Shown one piece after another: positions 9,039-16,513 of a stretch of 64,000 nt of DNA. The DNA comes from Fibrobacter sp. UWB13. Its GTDB lineage: Bacteria; Fibrobacterota; Fibrobacteria; Fibrobacterales; Fibrobacteraceae. A program made the position numbers and the translations under genes. The stretch is from assembly GCF_900177805.1 (NCBI RefSeq), contig NZ_FXAX01000001.1, forward strand, positions 558,001 to 622,000, read 5' to 3'. The notes beneath the pieces are model-generated. The model was not told the origin of the DNA and searched no databases. It saw only the letters and a program-made list of their open reading frames with translations. Numbering within the stretch: the stretch's first letter is position 1; the number at the start of each line of letters is the position of its first letter.

Positions 9039-10733
9039 TTACTCAGCGAAGTATTCCTTCGCCTTGGCGATGACGTCTTCGACCTTGACCATGGTGAACT
9101 GCTTTTCGTTGCGGAACTTCCATTCAACTTCGCCGTTTGCGAGGCCCTTCTTGCCGATGGCGATACGCACCGGAGAACCCCAGAGGTCAGCGTCCTTGAA
9201 CTTCACGCCCGGACGTTCGTCGCGGTCGTCCACGAGCACGTCAATGCCTGCGGCTTCGAGTTCCTTTTCGAACTTTTCAGCGAGTTCCATGAGTTCGGCT
9301 TCCTTGCCGATGGGGACGATTTCCACCTGGAACGGAGCGATGGACTTGGGCCAAATCGGTCCGAAGTCATCGTGGCTGTTTTCCACGACGGATGCCATCA
9401 AGCGGCCCACGCCGATGCCGTAGCAGCCCATGATCGCCGGAGCAGTCGTCTTTTCGGCGGTGAGGAACTTGGCGCCCATGGATTCAGAGAACTTGGTACC
9501 GAGCTTGAAGATGTTACCCATTTCGATACCGCGGGTTTCCGTGAGGAGTTCACCGCAGCAGGGGCACTTGCAGACTTCGGAAGCTTCGGCAATGTCGGCC
9601 ACTTCGAATTTCGGGAAGTCGCGCTTCGGGTTGCAATGCTTGAAGTGGAAGCCTTCTTCGTTTGCGCCCGTGACGAGATCGAAGGAATCTGCGATGGCTT
9701 CGTCCACGATGATGCGGGTGTCGTGAGAATTGATCGGGGATGCAAAGCCCGGAACCATGCCGCAAGATTTGATGAGACTGTCTTCTGCCGGATAGAGTTC
9801 CTTGGCCTTCAAGAGGTTGTGGAGCTTGATTTCGGAAACGTCGAGGTTACCCGGAACCACGACCGTGATGAGCTTGCCTTCGAAGTCGAAGAACACGCAC
9901 TTGGCTGTCGATTCGGCCGGAACATTCAGGAACTTGGTGATTTCTTCGATGCTTTCGCTGTTCGGAGTAGCGACCTTTTCGAGAGCGGCATTTTCGTCGC
10001 CCTTGAACGGCACGCGCTGGAACTTCGCGATTTCGCGGTTGGCCTGGTAGCCGCACTTCTTACAGAGAATCAAGTAGTCTTCGCCGTTCGGAGTATCGAG
10101 CATGAATTCGTGAGCGACTTTACCGCCCATGATACCTGTATCGCTCTGCACCACCACCGGTTCAATGCCCACACGACGGTAGATGCGGAGATAGGCGTCG
10201 TATTCTTCCTGGTAGTGACGGTCGAGGTCTTCCTGGCTGGTGTGGAAGCTGTAAGCATCCTTCATCAAGAATTCGCGGACACGGATAAGGCCGCCACGGG
10301 CACGGGCTTCGTCACGGTACTTGGTCTTGAACTGGTAGAGCATCACCGGCAGCTGCTTGTAGCTGTTGAGCACGTAGCGCACGAGGTCGGTCATGGCTTC
10401 TTCGTGCGTCATGGCGAGCACCATGTTGTGGTTGTTGCGGTCCTTGAAGCGGAGGAGTTCTTCGCCAATAGCCTGATAACGACCAGATTCGCTCCAGAGT
10501 TCAGCGGTCTGCACCACCGGCAAGTCCACTTCGATACCGCCAATCTTGTTCATTTCTTCGCGGATGATGTTTACGATCTTCTGGATGACACGGTAACCAA
10601 TCGGCATCATGGAATAGATACCGGTAGAAACGGGCTTGATGTAGCCGCCGCGCATAAGGAAGATGTGGGAGGGCATGGTGGCATCGCTCGGCGTTTCGCG
10701 GAGCGTGACGTAAAAGTACTTGGAGAGTTTCAT
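9039..10733 (-). CDS. proS: Prolyl-tRNA synthetase (bacterial type with editing insertion)
   Basis: 564 aa, as expected for type 1 ProRS. Charges tRNA-Pro with proline in the cytoplasm. Class II motif 1 lies in IIREEMNKIGGIEVDLPVVQ, motif 2 in YRDEARARGGLIRVREFLMKD and motif 3 in GCYGIGVGRLMASVVE. Between motifs 2 and 3, residues 225-385 form the YbaK-like editing domain that removes misactivated alanine; this is preceded by CKKCGYQANREIAKF. A pair of Cys motifs near residue 380 (CKCPCCGE) may bind a metal. The C-terminal anticodon domain (VEIVPIGKEAELMELAEKFEKELEAAGIDVLVDD) is complete. AAAGG nine bases before the ATG serves as ribosome site. Two terminators follow. Confidence 0.97.
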   Translation of the reverse strand: MKLSKYFYVTLRETPSDATMPSHIFLMRGGYIKPVSTGIYSMMPIGYRVIQKIVNIIREEMNKIGGIEVDLPVVQTAELWSESGRYQAIGEELLRFKDRNNHNMVLAMTHEEAMTDLVRYVLNSYKQLPVMLYQFKTKYRDEARARGGLIRVREFLMKDAYSFHTSQEDLDRHYQEEYDAYLRIYRRVGIEPVVVQSDTGIMGGKVAHEFMLDTPNGEDYLILCKKCGYQANREIAKFQRVPFKGDENAALEKVATPNSESIEEITKFLNVPAESTAKCVFFDFEGKLITVVVPGNLDVSEIKLHNLLKAKELYPAEDSLIKSCGMVPGFASPINSHDTRIIVDEAIADSFDLVTGANEEGFHFKHCNPKRDFPKFEVADIAEASEVCKCPCCGELLTETRGIEMGNIFKLGTKFSESMGAKFLTAEKTTAPAIMGCYGIGVGRLMASVVENSHDDFGPIWPKSIAPFQVEIVPIGKEAELMELAEKFEKELEAAGIDVLVDDRDERPGVKFKDADLWGSPVRIAIGKKGLANGEVEWKFRNEKQFTMVKVEDVIAKAKEYFAE

Positions 10734-10811: not shown

Positions 10812-11768
10812 CTAATTGAAAACTTGCACTCGGCGAGTCTCTGAACCCACCTTAACCCAATAGGTGCCCGGCGCCATGATGGCGATATTCGTTGAACCAT
10901 TGACGCGCCCTTTTTGGATTGTTTGTCCCTTGGAATTGAATACGGAAAACACATTCGGTTCCGAACTGAAAATTTGAATTTGCAAGCCCGAAGAATGAAT
11001 TTTGATTTGCGAAACAGATTTGCTTGGTCCTTTTAAATCCAATGTTTCGTTATCACTTTTCGAAACGAATTTTATGGTATGGTCGAATTCTTCTCCATTT
11101 ATATTTATTCTTGCAGCAAGCTTGTATTCACCTTCAGGAAACATCGTTGTTTGAATAGTAATGTTTCCACCGCAGAAACGCACAATTTCATTTTCATCAC
11201 ATGTCATTTGTTTTTCAGTCTGGATGGTGTCGCCTGAAGTATTGAGTATGCTGTAATAAACTTCAGTTGCCTTGAATGGGTATTCATAAGGCGGATCGGG
11301 AATAACAGTCTTTTTCGTGTAGTAGCAGTGCGGACGAAGATCTTCATCGGTTAAATTACCGGATACACCCCAAAGGTCATCTTCGTAGTATTCTTCATCG
11401 GGAATGTAATAGAGTGCATTAATATTGGTGTTTTCGAAATCAAAAAAATCTGCAAGTAGTTTGACGTCAAAAGCCATTAATGTATCAGCGCCGATTTTAC
11501 TGAAACCAATAGGGTGTTCCAAAGCTTTGTCTTCTTTGCAATAAAACAGTACTGAGGTCGGCAAGTTTGCCTTGTCCCAACTGTACGAATACCAACCAGG
11601 ATATTCTTCGTCTTTCTGCATGGCTTGTAAGTTTACGTCGTTATTGATTACAAGTCCGACTCCTGATTCAATCCAACAACTGTCATTTGGAATTAAGAAA
11701 TGAACAGTAAATGTTTCTGCGGATAATAAAGTCGCTAACCCCAAAAGCAACAAAACAAATTTTTTCAT
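10812..11768 (-). CDS. Secreted protein with C-terminal sorting-like domain
   Basis: 318 aa from the ATG at 11768, chosen because AAGGAGAAATTC precedes it. Residues 1-17 (MKKFVLLLLGLATLLSA) are a signal peptide with likely cleavage before ETFTV. The first 120 residues look like a beta-sandwich (FTVHFLIPNDSCWIESGVGLVINN, aromatic-rich). The last 65 residues (IKIHSSGLQIQIFSSEPNVF... MAPGTYWVKVGSETRRVQVFN) match the pattern of the C-terminal domains found on secreted Fibrobacter and Bacteroidota proteins, which guide type IX-like export. No catalytic motif is visible; a carbohydrate-binding or surface structural role is possible but unproven. Confidence 0.82.
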   Translation of the reverse strand: MKKFVLLLLGLATLLSAETFTVHFLIPNDSCWIESGVGLVINNDVNLQAMQKDEEYPGWYSYSWDKANLPTSVLFYCKEDKALEHPIGFSKIGADTLMAFDVKLLADFFDFENTNINALYYIPDEEYYEDDLWGVSGNLTDEDLRPHCYYTKKTVIPDPPYEYPFKATEVYYSILNTSGDTIQTEKQMTCDENEIVRFCGGNITIQTTMFPEGEYKLAARININGEEFDHTIKFVSKSDNETLDLKGPSKSVSQIKIHSSGLQIQIFSSEPNVFSVFNSKGQTIQKGRVNGSTNIAIMAPGTYWVKVGSETRRVQVFN

Positions 11769-11923
11769 GAATTTCTCCTTTTTTGATAACATTTATAATT
11801 TAGCTTGTTTTAGATGATGAAGCGCTTTTTAGAGTAATTTTGCTTTTCCCACTTTAATTTTTTGTTGCATGCGTTGCATATAGGATCCCCACATGCTCCA
11901 TGACAGGTTCTCCTATAATTTTG

Positions 11924-11931
11924 TATCTTAC
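11924..11931 (+). promoter_or_regulatory. TAnnTT promoter box for a leaderless mRNA
   Basis: TATCTTAC begins 12 bases before the ATG at 11936. A classical TATAAT lies at 11914-11919, so the exact box is uncertain, but either choice leaves almost no leader. Confidence 0.4.
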
Positions 11932-11935
11932 GGTC

Positions 11936-13054
11936 ATGGAATTTTTAAACCATTTGTGGGAAAAAGCCGCGGTACAAAAAATCGAAAAGTTCATTCCGGC
12001 GATTGCATTTTTGGGCGGGTTCAGCTGGGACTCGATGACCATTGGGCATAAAGTTTATGGAAGAGACTTAATTTTGTTGTCGTTCTATTATCTAGTGGCT
12101 CTCGTTTCGATTTATTTTATTGCGACAAAAAGTGTAATCAATGAAGATGATGAACTCGACGACTTTCCATCATTTTTCAGTAGAGTTTTAAATCGTGAAT
12201 GGCCGTCTTCTTGGGTTGACCGATTGACTTGGGCTGTGCAGTTTTGTTTTGGGAACCTTTATAGCGCACTTGTCATTTGCTATTTCAAAAGCTCAGGTTC
12301 CATCGCGTCTTTTACCATCGTTTTATTCCTAGTTGCGCTTCTTGTCGGTAACGAATTCTTGAAACAGAAATATGAAAAATTTGGAGTAAGTCTTGCGTTC
12401 TTTTGTCTACTTGGGACGATGTTTTTCAATTTTTTAATTCCGCACTTGGTTCATGAGATGGGGACGTTTTGGTTCTTTTTCAGCACGATAGTTTCGGTCT
12501 CCATCTGTTATTTACTTTGGTTTAAATCAAAGCATGAAAAACGGAATCTCATAGCACCCATAACGATTAGTCTGGTCCTTTCCATAGCGTATTTAGCCAA
12601 CTGGATTCCTCCTGTTCCGCTAATCGTGAAACAACAAATTGTCTGTAAAAATTTTGACAACGAAACGTACTCGTGCGATGCCGATAGACTCAATTTTTGG
12701 CAACGCAATGGTTTTGCTCAGTCGACTATTCACAAAGAAGATGGCGATGAAATTTACTTCATGTCCTCAGTTTACGGCCCGGCAGAACTCAAAGCACCTG
12801 TTGAATTTCGCTGGTACTACAAAGAACCCTCCACAGGAAAGTTTAAATTGACGGACAAGATTTCTTCGAGCCGAATGGTTATTCGGGGTGGGCGAGAGGC
12901 TGGTTATCGAAGTTATTCCAAAAAGAAAAATATCCCCGCAGGGGCATACCGTGTGGAAACGGCTTACAAGGATGGGGCTGTTATCGGTTCAACTTCGTTC
13001 AAAGTACTCGAAGGAACGCCTAAAAAAGGTTTTGTCCGTGATTCCCTACGCTAA
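11936..13054 (+). CDS. Integral membrane protein with C-terminal DUF2914-like domain
   Basis: 372 aa from the ATG at 11936 (an upstream in-frame ATG at 11900 precedes the likely promoter). About seven hydrophobic segments occupy residues 10-235 (for example LILLSFYYLVALVSIYFIAT and IVLFLVALLVGNEF). The last 110 residues are soluble and contain FRWYYK, GGREAGYRSYSKKKNIPAGAYRVETAYKDGAVIGSTSFKV. That pattern (W-h-W, GYR-WS-K, PAG-WRV, G-vi-s--F-V) is that of DUF2914, a small beta domain found at the end of membrane proteins and of unknown function. No ribosome site. A short hairpin ends the unit at about 13110. Confidence 0.78.
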   Translation: MEFLNHLWEKAAVQKIEKFIPAIAFLGGFSWDSMTIGHKVYGRDLILLSFYYLVALVSIYFIATKSVINEDDELDDFPSFFSRVLNREWPSSWVDRLTWAVQFCFGNLYSALVICYFKSSGSIASFTIVLFLVALLVGNEFLKQKYEKFGVSLAFFCLLGTMFFNFLIPHLVHEMGTFWFFFSTIVSVSICYLLWFKSKHEKRNLIAPITISLVLSIAYLANWIPPVPLIVKQQIVCKNFDNETYSCDADRLNFWQRNGFAQSTIHKEDGDEIYFMSSVYGPAELKAPVEFRWYYKEPSTGKFKLTDKISSSRMVIRGGREAGYRSYSKKKNIPAGAYRVETAYKDGAVIGSTSFKVLEGTPKKGFVRDSLR

Positions 13055-13080
13055 AAATATGTATATTAACACGCGAAAAT

Positions 13081-13110
13081 AGGAATGGGTGCATTCCTAA
13101 TGATTTTTTG
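13081..13110 (+). terminator. Probable terminator after the DUF2914-like gene
   Basis: AGGAAT-gggtgc-ATTCCT is followed after four bases by TGATTTTTT. Weak stem. Confidence 0.5.
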
Positions 13111-13127
13111 ACTTAGGAGTCTAAAAA

Positions 13128-14447
13128 ATGAAACTGAAAAAGATTGCTCTTGGTGCAGCCGCCCTTGCCTTGGTTGCTTGTGGCGAAGCCCAAAAACCGA
13201 TTGCTAAAGCAGCTGCTATCGCTCCAGATTCTGCAGATGACCAGAAATTCGCCTACATGCTTGGTGCCCAGTTCGGCCTTCAGAATTTTGCCAATCTTCC
13301 TTGGCAGTCTGGTGAAGGCATCGACGAAGATGCTACTGTTCAGGGTTTCCGTGATGGTCTTGCAAACTTGAAAGACACGAGCGCAAAGCTTCAGCTCCCT
13401 CAGGATACACTTGCTTCTGTTAGCAAACAAATCCAGAATGCAATGCGTGAACGCTATTTCAAGACGCAACCGGATTCTACCGCCAAGGATTTGAGTGACG
13501 AACAGCGCCGCGCTCTTGTTGATTCGCTCCGCAAGGCTTTACCGGTCACTCCGGCTCCTGCTGTTGCTAACGCTAATGTAAAACTCACTTTGGATGCTTC
13601 TTTGCAGCAGAAGTTCTCCTACCTCGTCGGTGTTCAGTTTGGTAACCAGTTCTATAGCATTGGTCGCCAGTTCCAGACGGATTTCGATGGAGAATACTTT
13701 GTGCTCGGTATTCGCGATGCTGGCAAGCGCGTTCGCGACACGACATTCAAGATGGTTCTTTCGGATGACTCTTTGAAGGCTGTCGGCGATCGCTACAACG
13801 AAAAGCTGAAGACAATCCGTGAAGAAATGACCAAGAAGCAGCAGGCTGAAGAAGAAAAGCTCAAGGCCGAAGTCGCTTCCCTCCGTGGTGATACGCTTGC
13901 AAACGGCATGCCTGCTAAGATGAACTTCAGCGTGAAGGCTTCCGGTATTACGGTGAAGGGCGAAGACTTGAGCGCTTTTGCTGGCAAGCCGCTCCTCATG
14001 TTCTACTTCTCTGCAACTTGCGGTCACTGCGCACATGCCGCTCCGCAGATTCTCGAAATCGCAAAGGAATTTGCTCAGAAGGGTCTCACGACTGTTTCTA
14101 TTGCTAGCGGTGGAAACAACAAACCGGGTATCCGTCGCTTTATCGACGATGCCAAGTTCGATGAAACGATTAGCGTCGTTTGGGATGAATCTCGCCAGTT
14201 CGGTGAACTTTACAGCGATGGCTACGTTCCGAAGGTCTATCTCGTGAATCCGGATGGCTCTTACAAGCAGTATGCTGCCTTCGAAAAGGAAAAGGATGAC
14301 CTGAAGAAGGAAATCGCAGAACTCCTCAACGGCAAGAACGTTGAATGGAAGATCGAAGTCAAGAAGCCGGCTGCTGATTCCGCCAAGGCTCCTGAAACAA
14401 AGCAGGAAACCAAGAAGGACGCCAAGTCCGCTAAGGCAAAGAAGTAA
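13128..14447 (+). CDS. Lipoprotein fusing two FKBP N-terminal domains to a thioredoxin/TlpA domain
   Basis: 439 aa. Signal peptide and lipobox (ALALVAC, Cys18). Two copies of the FKBP-type isomerase N-terminal (dimerisation) domain follow: about 38-115 (KFAYMLGAQFGLQNF ... TVQGFRDGL) and about 155-240 (KFSYLVGVQFGNQFY ... FVLGIRDAG). A charged coiled coil (240-265) leads to a thioredoxin fold (275-410) with active site ATCGHCAHAAP (Cys298, Cys301), a cis-proline segment GYVPKVYLVNPDG, and a Lys/Ala-rich tail. The usual FKBP catalytic domain is missing: the redox domain stands in its place. By family knowledge it should work in the periplasm, as a disulfide reductase or isomerase with chaperone-like dimer arms. 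TTAGGAGTCTAAAAA precedes the ATG. Confidence 0.9.
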   Translation: MKLKKIALGAAALALVACGEAQKPIAKAAAIAPDSADDQKFAYMLGAQFGLQNFANLPWQSGEGIDEDATVQGFRDGLANLKDTSAKLQLPQDTLASVSKQIQNAMRERYFKTQPDSTAKDLSDEQRRALVDSLRKALPVTPAPAVANANVKLTLDASLQQKFSYLVGVQFGNQFYSIGRQFQTDFDGEYFVLGIRDAGKRVRDTTFKMVLSDDSLKAVGDRYNEKLKTIREEMTKKQQAEEEKLKAEVASLRGDTLANGMPAKMNFSVKASGITVKGEDLSAFAGKPLLMFYFSATCGHCAHAAPQILEIAKEFAQKGLTTVSIASGGNNKPGIRRFIDDAKFDETISVVWDESRQFGELYSDGYVPKVYLVNPDGSYKQYAAFEKEKDDLKKEIAELLNGKNVEWKIEVKKPAADSAKAPETKQETKKDAKSAKAKK

Positions 14448-14489: not shown

Positions 14490-14524
14490 GAACGCATCTC
14501 GTAACGCGGGATGCGTTCTTTTTG
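14490..14524 (+). terminator. Terminator of the FKBP-thioredoxin gene
   Basis: GAACGCATC/GATGCGTTC stem followed by TTTTTG. Confidence 0.85.
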
Positions 14525-14611: not shown

Positions 14612-16513
14612 ATGATTATCGCAGAATTTGATGTTGTCGTCGTCGGTGGTGGTCACGCCGGTATTGAAGCTACGCATGCCGCATGGAAGATTGGTGTCAA
14701 AACCGCCATGCTCACGATGGATTTGAATGCTATCGGCAGAATGTCGTGCAACCCAGCAGTCGGTGGCGTTGCTAAAGGCCAAATTGTTCGCGACATCGAT
14801 GCTCTCGGTGGTCTCATGGGGCTTTTGACGGACAAGGCTGGCATCCAGTTCCGCATGCTCAACATGAGCAAGGGTCCTGCCGTATGGGGACCGCGTGCAC
14901 AATGCGATATGAAGTATTACAGCGAAGTTGCCCGCGAGACGATGGAAAGCTTGCCGGGACTCACGCTGATTCAAGGCGAACTTGCATCGTTTGAACGTAT
15001 GAACGACGGTCGATTGGAACTCACGCTTTTGAATGGCGACCGCTATATCACACGTGCGATTGTGGTGACGAGCGGAACATTCCTTGCCTCCAAGATGTTC
15101 ACCGGGCTTGAAACGAGCATCGGTGGGCGAGTGGGCGAGCCGAGTGCAGACAAACTCTCGGAATGTTTGGCAAAGAACGGCATCCGTCTGCGCCGCCTAA
15201 AAACAGGCACGCCGAGCCGCTTGGATCCGGATTCTATCGACTTTAACGAGTGCGATGTGCAACATGGCGACGAGCATCCGTGGCCGATGAGCGACCGCCA
15301 TTTTGATGGTGCCACTCCCGACAAGTTCTGGGGTGACCAAATTAACAAGTTTATCCGCAACGATTGCGTCTGCTGGATTACGCGCACGAACATCAAGACG
15401 CACGATATTTTGCGCAGCGGCTTCAAGGATAGCCCGATGTTCAGCGGCCGTATCCACGGCAAAGGCCCGCGTTACTGCCCAAGTATCGAAGATAAAATCA
15501 ACCGTTTCGGCGACCGCGACGGGCACCAGCTGTTCCTCGAACCGGAACAGGCTGACATCGGGCGTGTGTACATCAACGGTTTCAGCTCGAGTTTGCCGGC
15601 AGACATCCAGCTTGCTGCCATCCACACGATTCCGGGCCTTACCCGCGCGAAAGTGCTCCAGATCGGTTACGCTGTGGAATATGATTCTGTCGATGCAACG
15701 CAGCTATACCCGACGTTCGAATGCAAGAACGTTCCGGGACTCTATTTTGCGGGCCAGGTCTGCGGCACAAGCGGTTACGAAGAAGCCGCAGGTCAGGGTC
15801 TTATGGCAGGCATCAACGCCGCTCTCAAGGTCAAGGGCGAGGAACCGTTCATTCTCGGGCGCTCCGAAAGCTATCTCGGCGTGATGGTCGATGACCTTGT
15901 GAACATTTTGCTCGATGAACCGTACCGCATGTTCACTAGCCGTGCGGAATACCGTCTGTTCCTCCGCAGCGACAATGCCGAAATGCGCCTCAAGGAAAAG
16001 GCCCGCAAGATTGGCATGATCAGCGACCGCGATTGGGAAGACTGGACTCGCCGCCGTGACCTCATGGCTAGCCTCAAAACACAATTTACAGAAACGTCCG
16101 CAATGCCGGAAGAAGCAAATACGATTCTTGAAGCGGGCGGTCAGGCTCTCGCCTCCGAACGCACCCGCTGGATCAACGTGCTCCGCCGTCCGGGAATCGA
16201 TCCCGAAACGTTCTTCAAGGTGGCTGCACCGGATGCTAAAATTACGCGCCGTGACCAGTGGTACATGTATGCCGAAGAACTCTATGCCGGGTTCTTTGAC
16301 CGCCAGGAACGCGAAATTGACGACCAGAAGAAGATGGAAAAGGTCAAGCTCTCGCCGGACTTCGATTACATGTCCATTACGGCCATCAGCATTGAAAGCC
16401 GCCAGCGCCTCAACGCCCACAAGCCGCTAACGCTTGGACAGGCTAGCCGCGTGCCTGGAGTGCGCCCCGCCGACATCACCGTCCTCGCGCATTGGATTGA
16501 ATCTAGAACCTAG
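14612..16513 (+). CDS. mnmG: tRNA uridine-5-carboxymethylaminomethyl modification enzyme MnmG
   Basis: 633 aa, usual length. With MnmE it installs carboxymethylaminomethyl groups at wobble U34 of certain tRNAs, using FAD, NADH and methylene-tetrahydrofolate. FAD-binding motif DVVVVGGGHAGIEA is at residues 6-19, the conserved CNPAVGGVAKGQIVRDIDALGG at about 46-67, GTFLASKMF near 150, a second conserved block LKTGTPSRL near 200, and GYEEAAGQGLMAGINAA near 385. The C-terminal helical domain that contacts MnmE (YMSITAISIESRQRLNAHKPLTLGQASRVPGVRPADI) is complete. mnmE is not next to it. The stop codon lies in the first unit of a repeat element. Confidence 0.97.
   Translation: MIIAEFDVVVVGGGHAGIEATHAAWKIGVKTAMLTMDLNAIGRMSCNPAVGGVAKGQIVRDIDALGGLMGLLTDKAGIQFRMLNMSKGPAVWGPRAQCDMKYYSEVARETMESLPGLTLIQGELASFERMNDGRLELTLLNGDRYITRAIVVTSGTFLASKMFTGLETSIGGRVGEPSADKLSECLAKNGIRLRRLKTGTPSRLDPDSIDFNECDVQHGDEHPWPMSDRHFDGATPDKFWGDQINKFIRNDCVCWITRTNIKTHDILRSGFKDSPMFSGRIHGKGPRYCPSIEDKINRFGDRDGHQLFLEPEQADIGRVYINGFSSSLPADIQLAAIHTIPGLTRAKVLQIGYAVEYDSVDATQLYPTFECKNVPGLYFAGQVCGTSGYEEAAGQGLMAGINAALKVKGEEPFILGRSESYLGVMVDDLVNILLDEPYRMFTSRAEYRLFLRSDNAEMRLKEKARKIGMISDRDWEDWTRRRDLMASLKTQFTETSAMPEEANTILEAGGQALASERTRWINVLRRPGIDPETFFKVAAPDAKITRRDQWYMYAEELYAGFFDRQEREIDDQKKMEKVKLSPDFDYMSITAISIESRQRLNAHKPLTLGQASRVPGVRPADITVLAHWIESRT

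Follow-up and report, generated by a model that had tools for sequence, protein, structure and literature searches.

The FKBP_N domain usually serves as the dimerising, holding half of prolyl isomerases. At positions 13128-14447 (+) of the window, a stretch of 64,000 nucleotides of Fibrobacter sp. UWB13 DNA, an open reading frame of 439 aa with exactly these bounds places two such domains ahead of a thioredoxin domain. Is this arrangement a genuine protein architecture, and what could a duplicated holding domain do for a disulfide enzyme in the cell envelope?

Domain content of the lipoprotein

The following features were delineated in the gene, with the evidence for each in brackets:

13115..13119 (+), Shine-Dalgarno-like AGGAG, a good ribosome-binding site ahead of the ATG (sequence)
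13128..14447 (+), whole gene, tandem FKBP_N-thioredoxin lipoprotein of 439 aa (ORF; 64 distinct full-length relatives)
13128..13181 (+), signal peptide with lipobox L-V-A-C18, residues 1-18 (sequence; C18 invariant in the alignment of relatives)
13236..13463 (+), FKBP_N unit 1, residues 37-112, helices 37-61, 67-82 and 92-112 (Pfam, 28.4 bits; model; FkpA match)
13464..13601 (+), inter-unit linker, residues 113-158, with two short helices at 117-121 and at 124-137 (model; conservation below both units)
13602..13763 (+), helices 1-2 of FKBP_N unit 2, residues 159-212 (Pfam, 33.8 bits; model)
13764..13886 (+), unit 2, helix 3, residues 213-253, long and serving as stalk to the catalytic domain (model; well conserved)
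13899..14339 (+), TlpA/ResA-type thioredoxin domain, residues 258-404 approximately (Pfam Redoxin, AhpC-TSA and Thioredoxin_8; VIA-align)
14019..14030 (+), active site C298-G-H-C301 (CGHC in 59/64 and CPHC in 5/64 distinct members)
14229..14231 (+), Pro368 of G-Y-V-P-K, at the cis-proline position of thioredoxin folds (GYVPK in 64/64 members)
14340..14444 (+), C-terminal tail of low complexity, rich in Lys/Ala/Pro and for the most part disordered (pLDDT below 50 from residue 415; length varies among relatives)

When the halves of the protein were scanned singly, Pfam FKBP_N (PF01346) matched residues 39-110 with 28.4 bits and residues 160-251 with 33.8 bits, both in excess of the curated cut-off of 22 bits. 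The first-pass annotation had staked its reading on residues 38-115 and 155-240 belonging to this family, and it is borne out on this point, as it is on the order of two FKBP_N units ahead of a CGHC thioredoxin domain. The two units aligned with each other with an HHalign probability of 99.8% over 78 columns. Searched against the PDB, the profile of the N-half retrieved E. coli FkpA through unit 1 (E 9e-6) and, weakly, Legionella Mip through unit 2 (E 0.24). In the model, unit 2 displays the three helices of an FKBP_N domain (159-181, 188-203 and 213-253), the third being long and directed toward the catalytic domain. No match to FKBP_C (PF00254) was obtained in the protein at E up to 10; the isomerase domain of FkpA and Mip is thus missing, as had been claimed.

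In the C-terminal half, the matches to Redoxin, AhpC-TSA and Thioredoxin_8 span residues 280-378, and the NCBIfam models matching this part were of thioredoxin types alone; ResA/StoA ranked first, and none came near its cut-off. Structural comparison by VIA-align gave Z values of 16-17 and an rmsd of 2.1-2.3 over 132-142 residues with ResA, TlpA-like and DsbF chains, the ResA and CcmG folds being nearest. The CxxC motif (CGHC or CPHC) lies at the start of a helix, residues 299-316 in the model, and is accompanied by GYVPK throughout the 64 members. Apart from C298 and C301, the only cysteine of the 439 residues is Cys18 of the lipobox, and extra cysteines in the mature part are almost absent across the relatives. 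The lipobox pattern of bacterial lipoproteins was recognised in 61/64 members, which together with the invariant C18 upholds the assignment of the protein as a lipoprotein.

Distribution, descent and paralogues

The 64 distinct full-length relatives were gathered from Fibrobacter and other Fibrobacteraceae genera, and 33/33 aligned relatives matched FKBP_N as well as Redoxin/AhpC-TSA/Thioredoxin_8. Mean column identity was highest in the thioredoxin domain (0.80), followed by the stalk helix (0.75), unit 2 (0.68) and unit 1 (0.67); the tail and the linker, which is far shorter in L067 and L069, ranked lowest. Since the same domain order was still present at 38-47% identity, a chance origin of the architecture could be excluded.

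In a set of 168 genomes from the phylum, the complete architecture was recovered in most Fibrobacter genomes and in six further Fibrobacteraceae genera. Genera g8, g9, g10 and g14 of the same family and the other families yielded weaker, partial matches only, those with listed ranges covering the thioredoxin part alone, and the profile search of these 168 genomes found no full-length copy beyond the Fibrobacteraceae. A scan of 84,980 species genomes, using a pattern that reaches close relatives only, returned nothing other than Fibrobacter/Fibrobacteres records. To judge from these searches, the architecture is restricted to the Fibrobacteraceae, as seen within the phylum. No description of it, nor of FKBP/thioredoxin in Fibrobacter, was found in the open-access literature, and as far as that search reached the view that the architecture lacks a described precedent stands.

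The surroundings of the gene comprise:

9039..10733 (-), proS, kept as neighbour on one side; two variable genes lie in between
13080..13099 (+), weak terminator-like hairpin 5' of the gene (8-pair stem, interrupted tail)
14490..14518 (+), terminator-like hairpin with T tract 3' of the gene (13-pair stem, then TTTTT)
14612..16513 (+), mnmG, kept as neighbour on the opposite side

At every locus long enough for the check, proS and/or mnmG adjoined the gene, and this neighbourhood, kept across the family, suggests vertical descent at one place. Horizontal spread was considered and found unsupported, the proS/mnmG position being kept and plasmid records matching the TlpA-type thioredoxin part only. 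The hairpins on both sides hint that the gene is transcribed alone and is probably its own transcription unit, the total count of terminator-like hairpin sites in the region being at chance level. Directly upstream, at 11900-13054 (+) of the window, lies a gene for a membrane protein with a C-terminal DUF2914, which adjoins the FKBP_N-thioredoxin gene in some relatives only and is located elsewhere in others. For the exported protein encoded at 10812-11792 (-), the match to a C-terminal sorting domain of type IX secretion stayed below threshold, at 20.9 bits for a cut-off of 27.

Several kinds of paralogue were encountered. In some Fibrobacter genomes a second, diverged copy of the whole gene stands in tandem directly beside the first; such copies were found at L050 (4716-5954, +), L128 (4864-6090, -) and L075. 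Several Fibrobacter genomes also encode lipoproteins of 225-286 aa (L076-L083) corresponding to the double FKBP_N half, with neither thioredoxin nor isomerase domain. These predicted proteins show that the double half is able to stand alone. The one of 225 aa that was scanned (L079) no longer reached the Pfam FKBP_N model. In a tree of the units, which contains few columns and many unresolved forks, the unit 1 copies grouped together, whether from fused or unfused proteins, and so did the unit 2 copies, except for those of L067, the deepest fused member. FkpA-type N-domains were set apart, and the thioredoxin-less paralogues were nested among the fused proteins. Such a topology fits a single duplication, after which the shorter paralogues would have lost their thioredoxin domain; a gain is less favoured.

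The same genome further encodes a free-standing exported thioredoxin with a CPHC site (L002), 40% identical to the fused domain and likely its kin. A separate fusion of a holding domain with a thioredoxin, PDZ plus thioredoxin (CGPC), was observed at L004:1480-2247 (-) of this genome (C1, near 822885). Taken on its sequences, the FKBP_N-thioredoxin protein is a real, conserved and lineage-bound architecture assembled from known parts.

Oligomeric form and direction of the reaction

In a single-chain run, the N-half alone was predicted with a pLDDT of 91.7 and a pTM of 0.83, against 85.7 and 0.60 for the whole chain. The difference in pTM leads us to suppose that the FKBP_N units pack together and that the thioredoxin arm has a less certain place; packing is here judged from the pTM alone, and we infer the exact pairing. 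The lower value of the whole chain appears to reflect the uncertain position of the arm in the model and the disordered ends. Comparison of the N-half model with the PDB by Foldseek and VIA-align gave nothing above noise (best Z 4.7). This result says nothing against FKBP_N, because a swapped pair within one chain may resemble no single solved chain; the family membership of the N-half was found by sequence profiles.

The first-pass annotation had pictured a V-shaped chaperone rebuilt as a disulfide enzyme. FkpA, Mip and FKBP22 do form V-shaped dimers through the FKBP_N domain, and in Shewanella FKBP22 the N-domains that build the V also bind substrate (PMC3179164); DsbC and DsbG consist of two facing thioredoxin arms (PMC2689190). 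On these models, unit 1 or unit 2 could pair between chains and set two thioredoxin arms across a cleft in a DsbC-like manner. We nevertheless hold such a true V-shaped homodimer to be rather unlikely. With its N-domains in tandem, NNC-FKBP22, the engineered N-N-C protein of Budiman et al. 2009, is a monomer by ultracentrifugation (PMC3179164), and both Fibrobacter units formed one compact body in the single-chain prediction. For these two reasons, model and analogy favour a one-armed monomer as the more likely form; of the earlier picture, the domain content holds and the V-shaped homodimer is the less well supported part. NNC-FKBP22 binds reduced, not non-reduced, alpha-lactalbumin, and its affinity for substrate is 6.5-fold weaker than that of the V-shaped dimer (PMC3179164), so that a one-armed form would perhaps be a poor chaperone.

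Our preferred reading, to which we give an even chance, is an envelope lipoprotein combining a substrate-holding module with a disulfide-exchange module, that is, a monomeric clamp with a DsbD-fed thioredoxin arm. Both FKBP_N units would pair inside one chain, as the subunits of FkpA and Mip dimers do between chains, and this pseudo-dimer would present a hydrophobic holding surface to unfolded exported proteins whose cysteines are reduced or mispaired. From unit 2, the long third helix would bring the single TlpA-type arm to the bound substrate, where the CGHC site would reduce or reshuffle wrong or unwanted disulfides and would itself be re-reduced by the DsbD of the genome. This work would be DsbC/DsbG-like in kind, performed by a one-armed monomer built from unrelated holding parts. 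The fuller claim of a one-armed monomeric disulfide isomerase or reductase, with an intrachain FKBP_N clamp and a DsbD-fed arm, in anaerobes devoid of DsbB and VKOR, is advanced tentatively, as something short of probable.

The redox setting of the genome bears on the direction of the reaction. A complete DsbD (DsbD_N, DsbD_TM and C-terminal thioredoxin) is encoded at L129:817-2742 (+) and a DsbA-like CPYC lipoprotein at L130:1447-2181 (-); neither DsbB nor VKOR was detected in the genome. In a 464-kb sample, one eighth of the genome, with exported proteins picked by a home-made signal-peptide rule, ~90% of the exported proteins hold Cys, and even Cys counts (28/55 for exported versus 79/140 for cytoplasmic proteins) revealed no preference. 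The absence of an even-Cys bias, together with that of DsbB and VKOR, suggests an envelope unlike a strongly oxidising one, in which reduction or repair would be the likelier task of the protein. The protein had been thought to help fold the many Cys-containing surface proteins of the organism: the wealth of cysteines agrees with this, but with no preference for even counts and neither DsbB nor VKOR detected, reducing or protecting thiols is no less probable a role than folding by oxidation.

An oxidase would work in the opposite direction: with the DsbA-like lipoprotein it would insert disulfides in exported proteins, and a further partner would keep its CGHC site oxidised. The active site of PDI is CGHC and that of E. 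coli DsbA is CPHC. CxHC thus occurs in oxidising members of the superfamily, CPHC itself is found in the 5 variant relatives, and both the CPYC lipoprotein and the abundance of exported Cys are in keeping with oxidation. This explanation is improbable in view of the lack of a detected DsbB or VKOR, the even counts that are not favoured, the presence of DsbD and the assignment of the domain to the TlpA/ResA type, whose members are mostly reductases.

Still less credit goes to a protein acting mainly as a holdase chaperone, with the thioredoxin domain as an added docking or sensing part. The double FKBP_N paralogues nested among the fused proteins speak for it. Against it, conservation is highest in the thioredoxin domain (0.80, versus 0.67 for the units), whose active site varies by G/P alone. 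Finally, a role as a ResA/CcmG-like reductase in the maturation of cytochrome c, suggested by the folds closest to the thioredoxin domain, is very improbable and was rejected, as no Cytochrom_C_asm protein was found in this genome, rated 100% complete, when 11/14 control genomes gave a match.

Relation to known systems

The protein shares with FkpA, Mip and FKBP22 the three-helix FKBP_N domain whose long third helix runs toward a C-terminal catalytic domain; it differs from them in having two FKBP_N per chain and a thioredoxin domain for the prolyl isomerase. Ordinary isomerases with FKBP_N and FKBP_C are encoded twice in the same genome (L003 and L072). The N-N-C order of NNC-FKBP22, tandem FKBP_N and then one catalytic domain, is reproduced, although that protein was engineered with FKBP_C and a three-glycine joint, in place of which the Fibrobacter protein has a thioredoxin domain and a natural linker of 46 residues.

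The N-domain of FkpA is reportedly among the parts that Arredondo and colleagues used for DsbC-like chimeras. A review relates that DsbA joined to a dimerising, peptide-binding part became an isomerase (Arredondo et al. 2008, via PMC2689190). Such artificial chimeras resemble the Fibrobacter protein in linking a dimerisation or peptide-binding part to a thioredoxin-family enzyme and differ in being engineered and in that each chain has a single N-domain. Like them, DsbC, DsbG and Helicobacter HP0231 (DsbK, PMC4597128) are periplasmic thioredoxin-family enzymes with an N-terminal dimerisation or substrate-binding part; in contrast, the Fibrobacter N-half is a duplicated FKBP_N, DsbC_N was not among the Pfam matches of the protein at E up to 10, and the protein is a lipoprotein. 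With TlpA, ResA and CcmG the C-terminal domain has its fold and active-site layout in common; the FKBP_N pair at the N-terminus and a genome without detectable cytochrome c assembly genes set it apart.

Protein engineers had made this domain combination in pieces only; here it occurs naturally. With FKBP_N duplicated and serving a disulfide enzyme, the holding half of the isomerases turns out to be a movable part, joined by evolution to another catalyst. Should the one-armed form be true, it would test the need for two catalytic arms in disulfide isomerisation and would amount to an independent answer to the DsbC problem without them. It would also help explain how cysteines are handled in the envelope of strictly anaerobic cellulose degraders that lack DsbB and VKOR.
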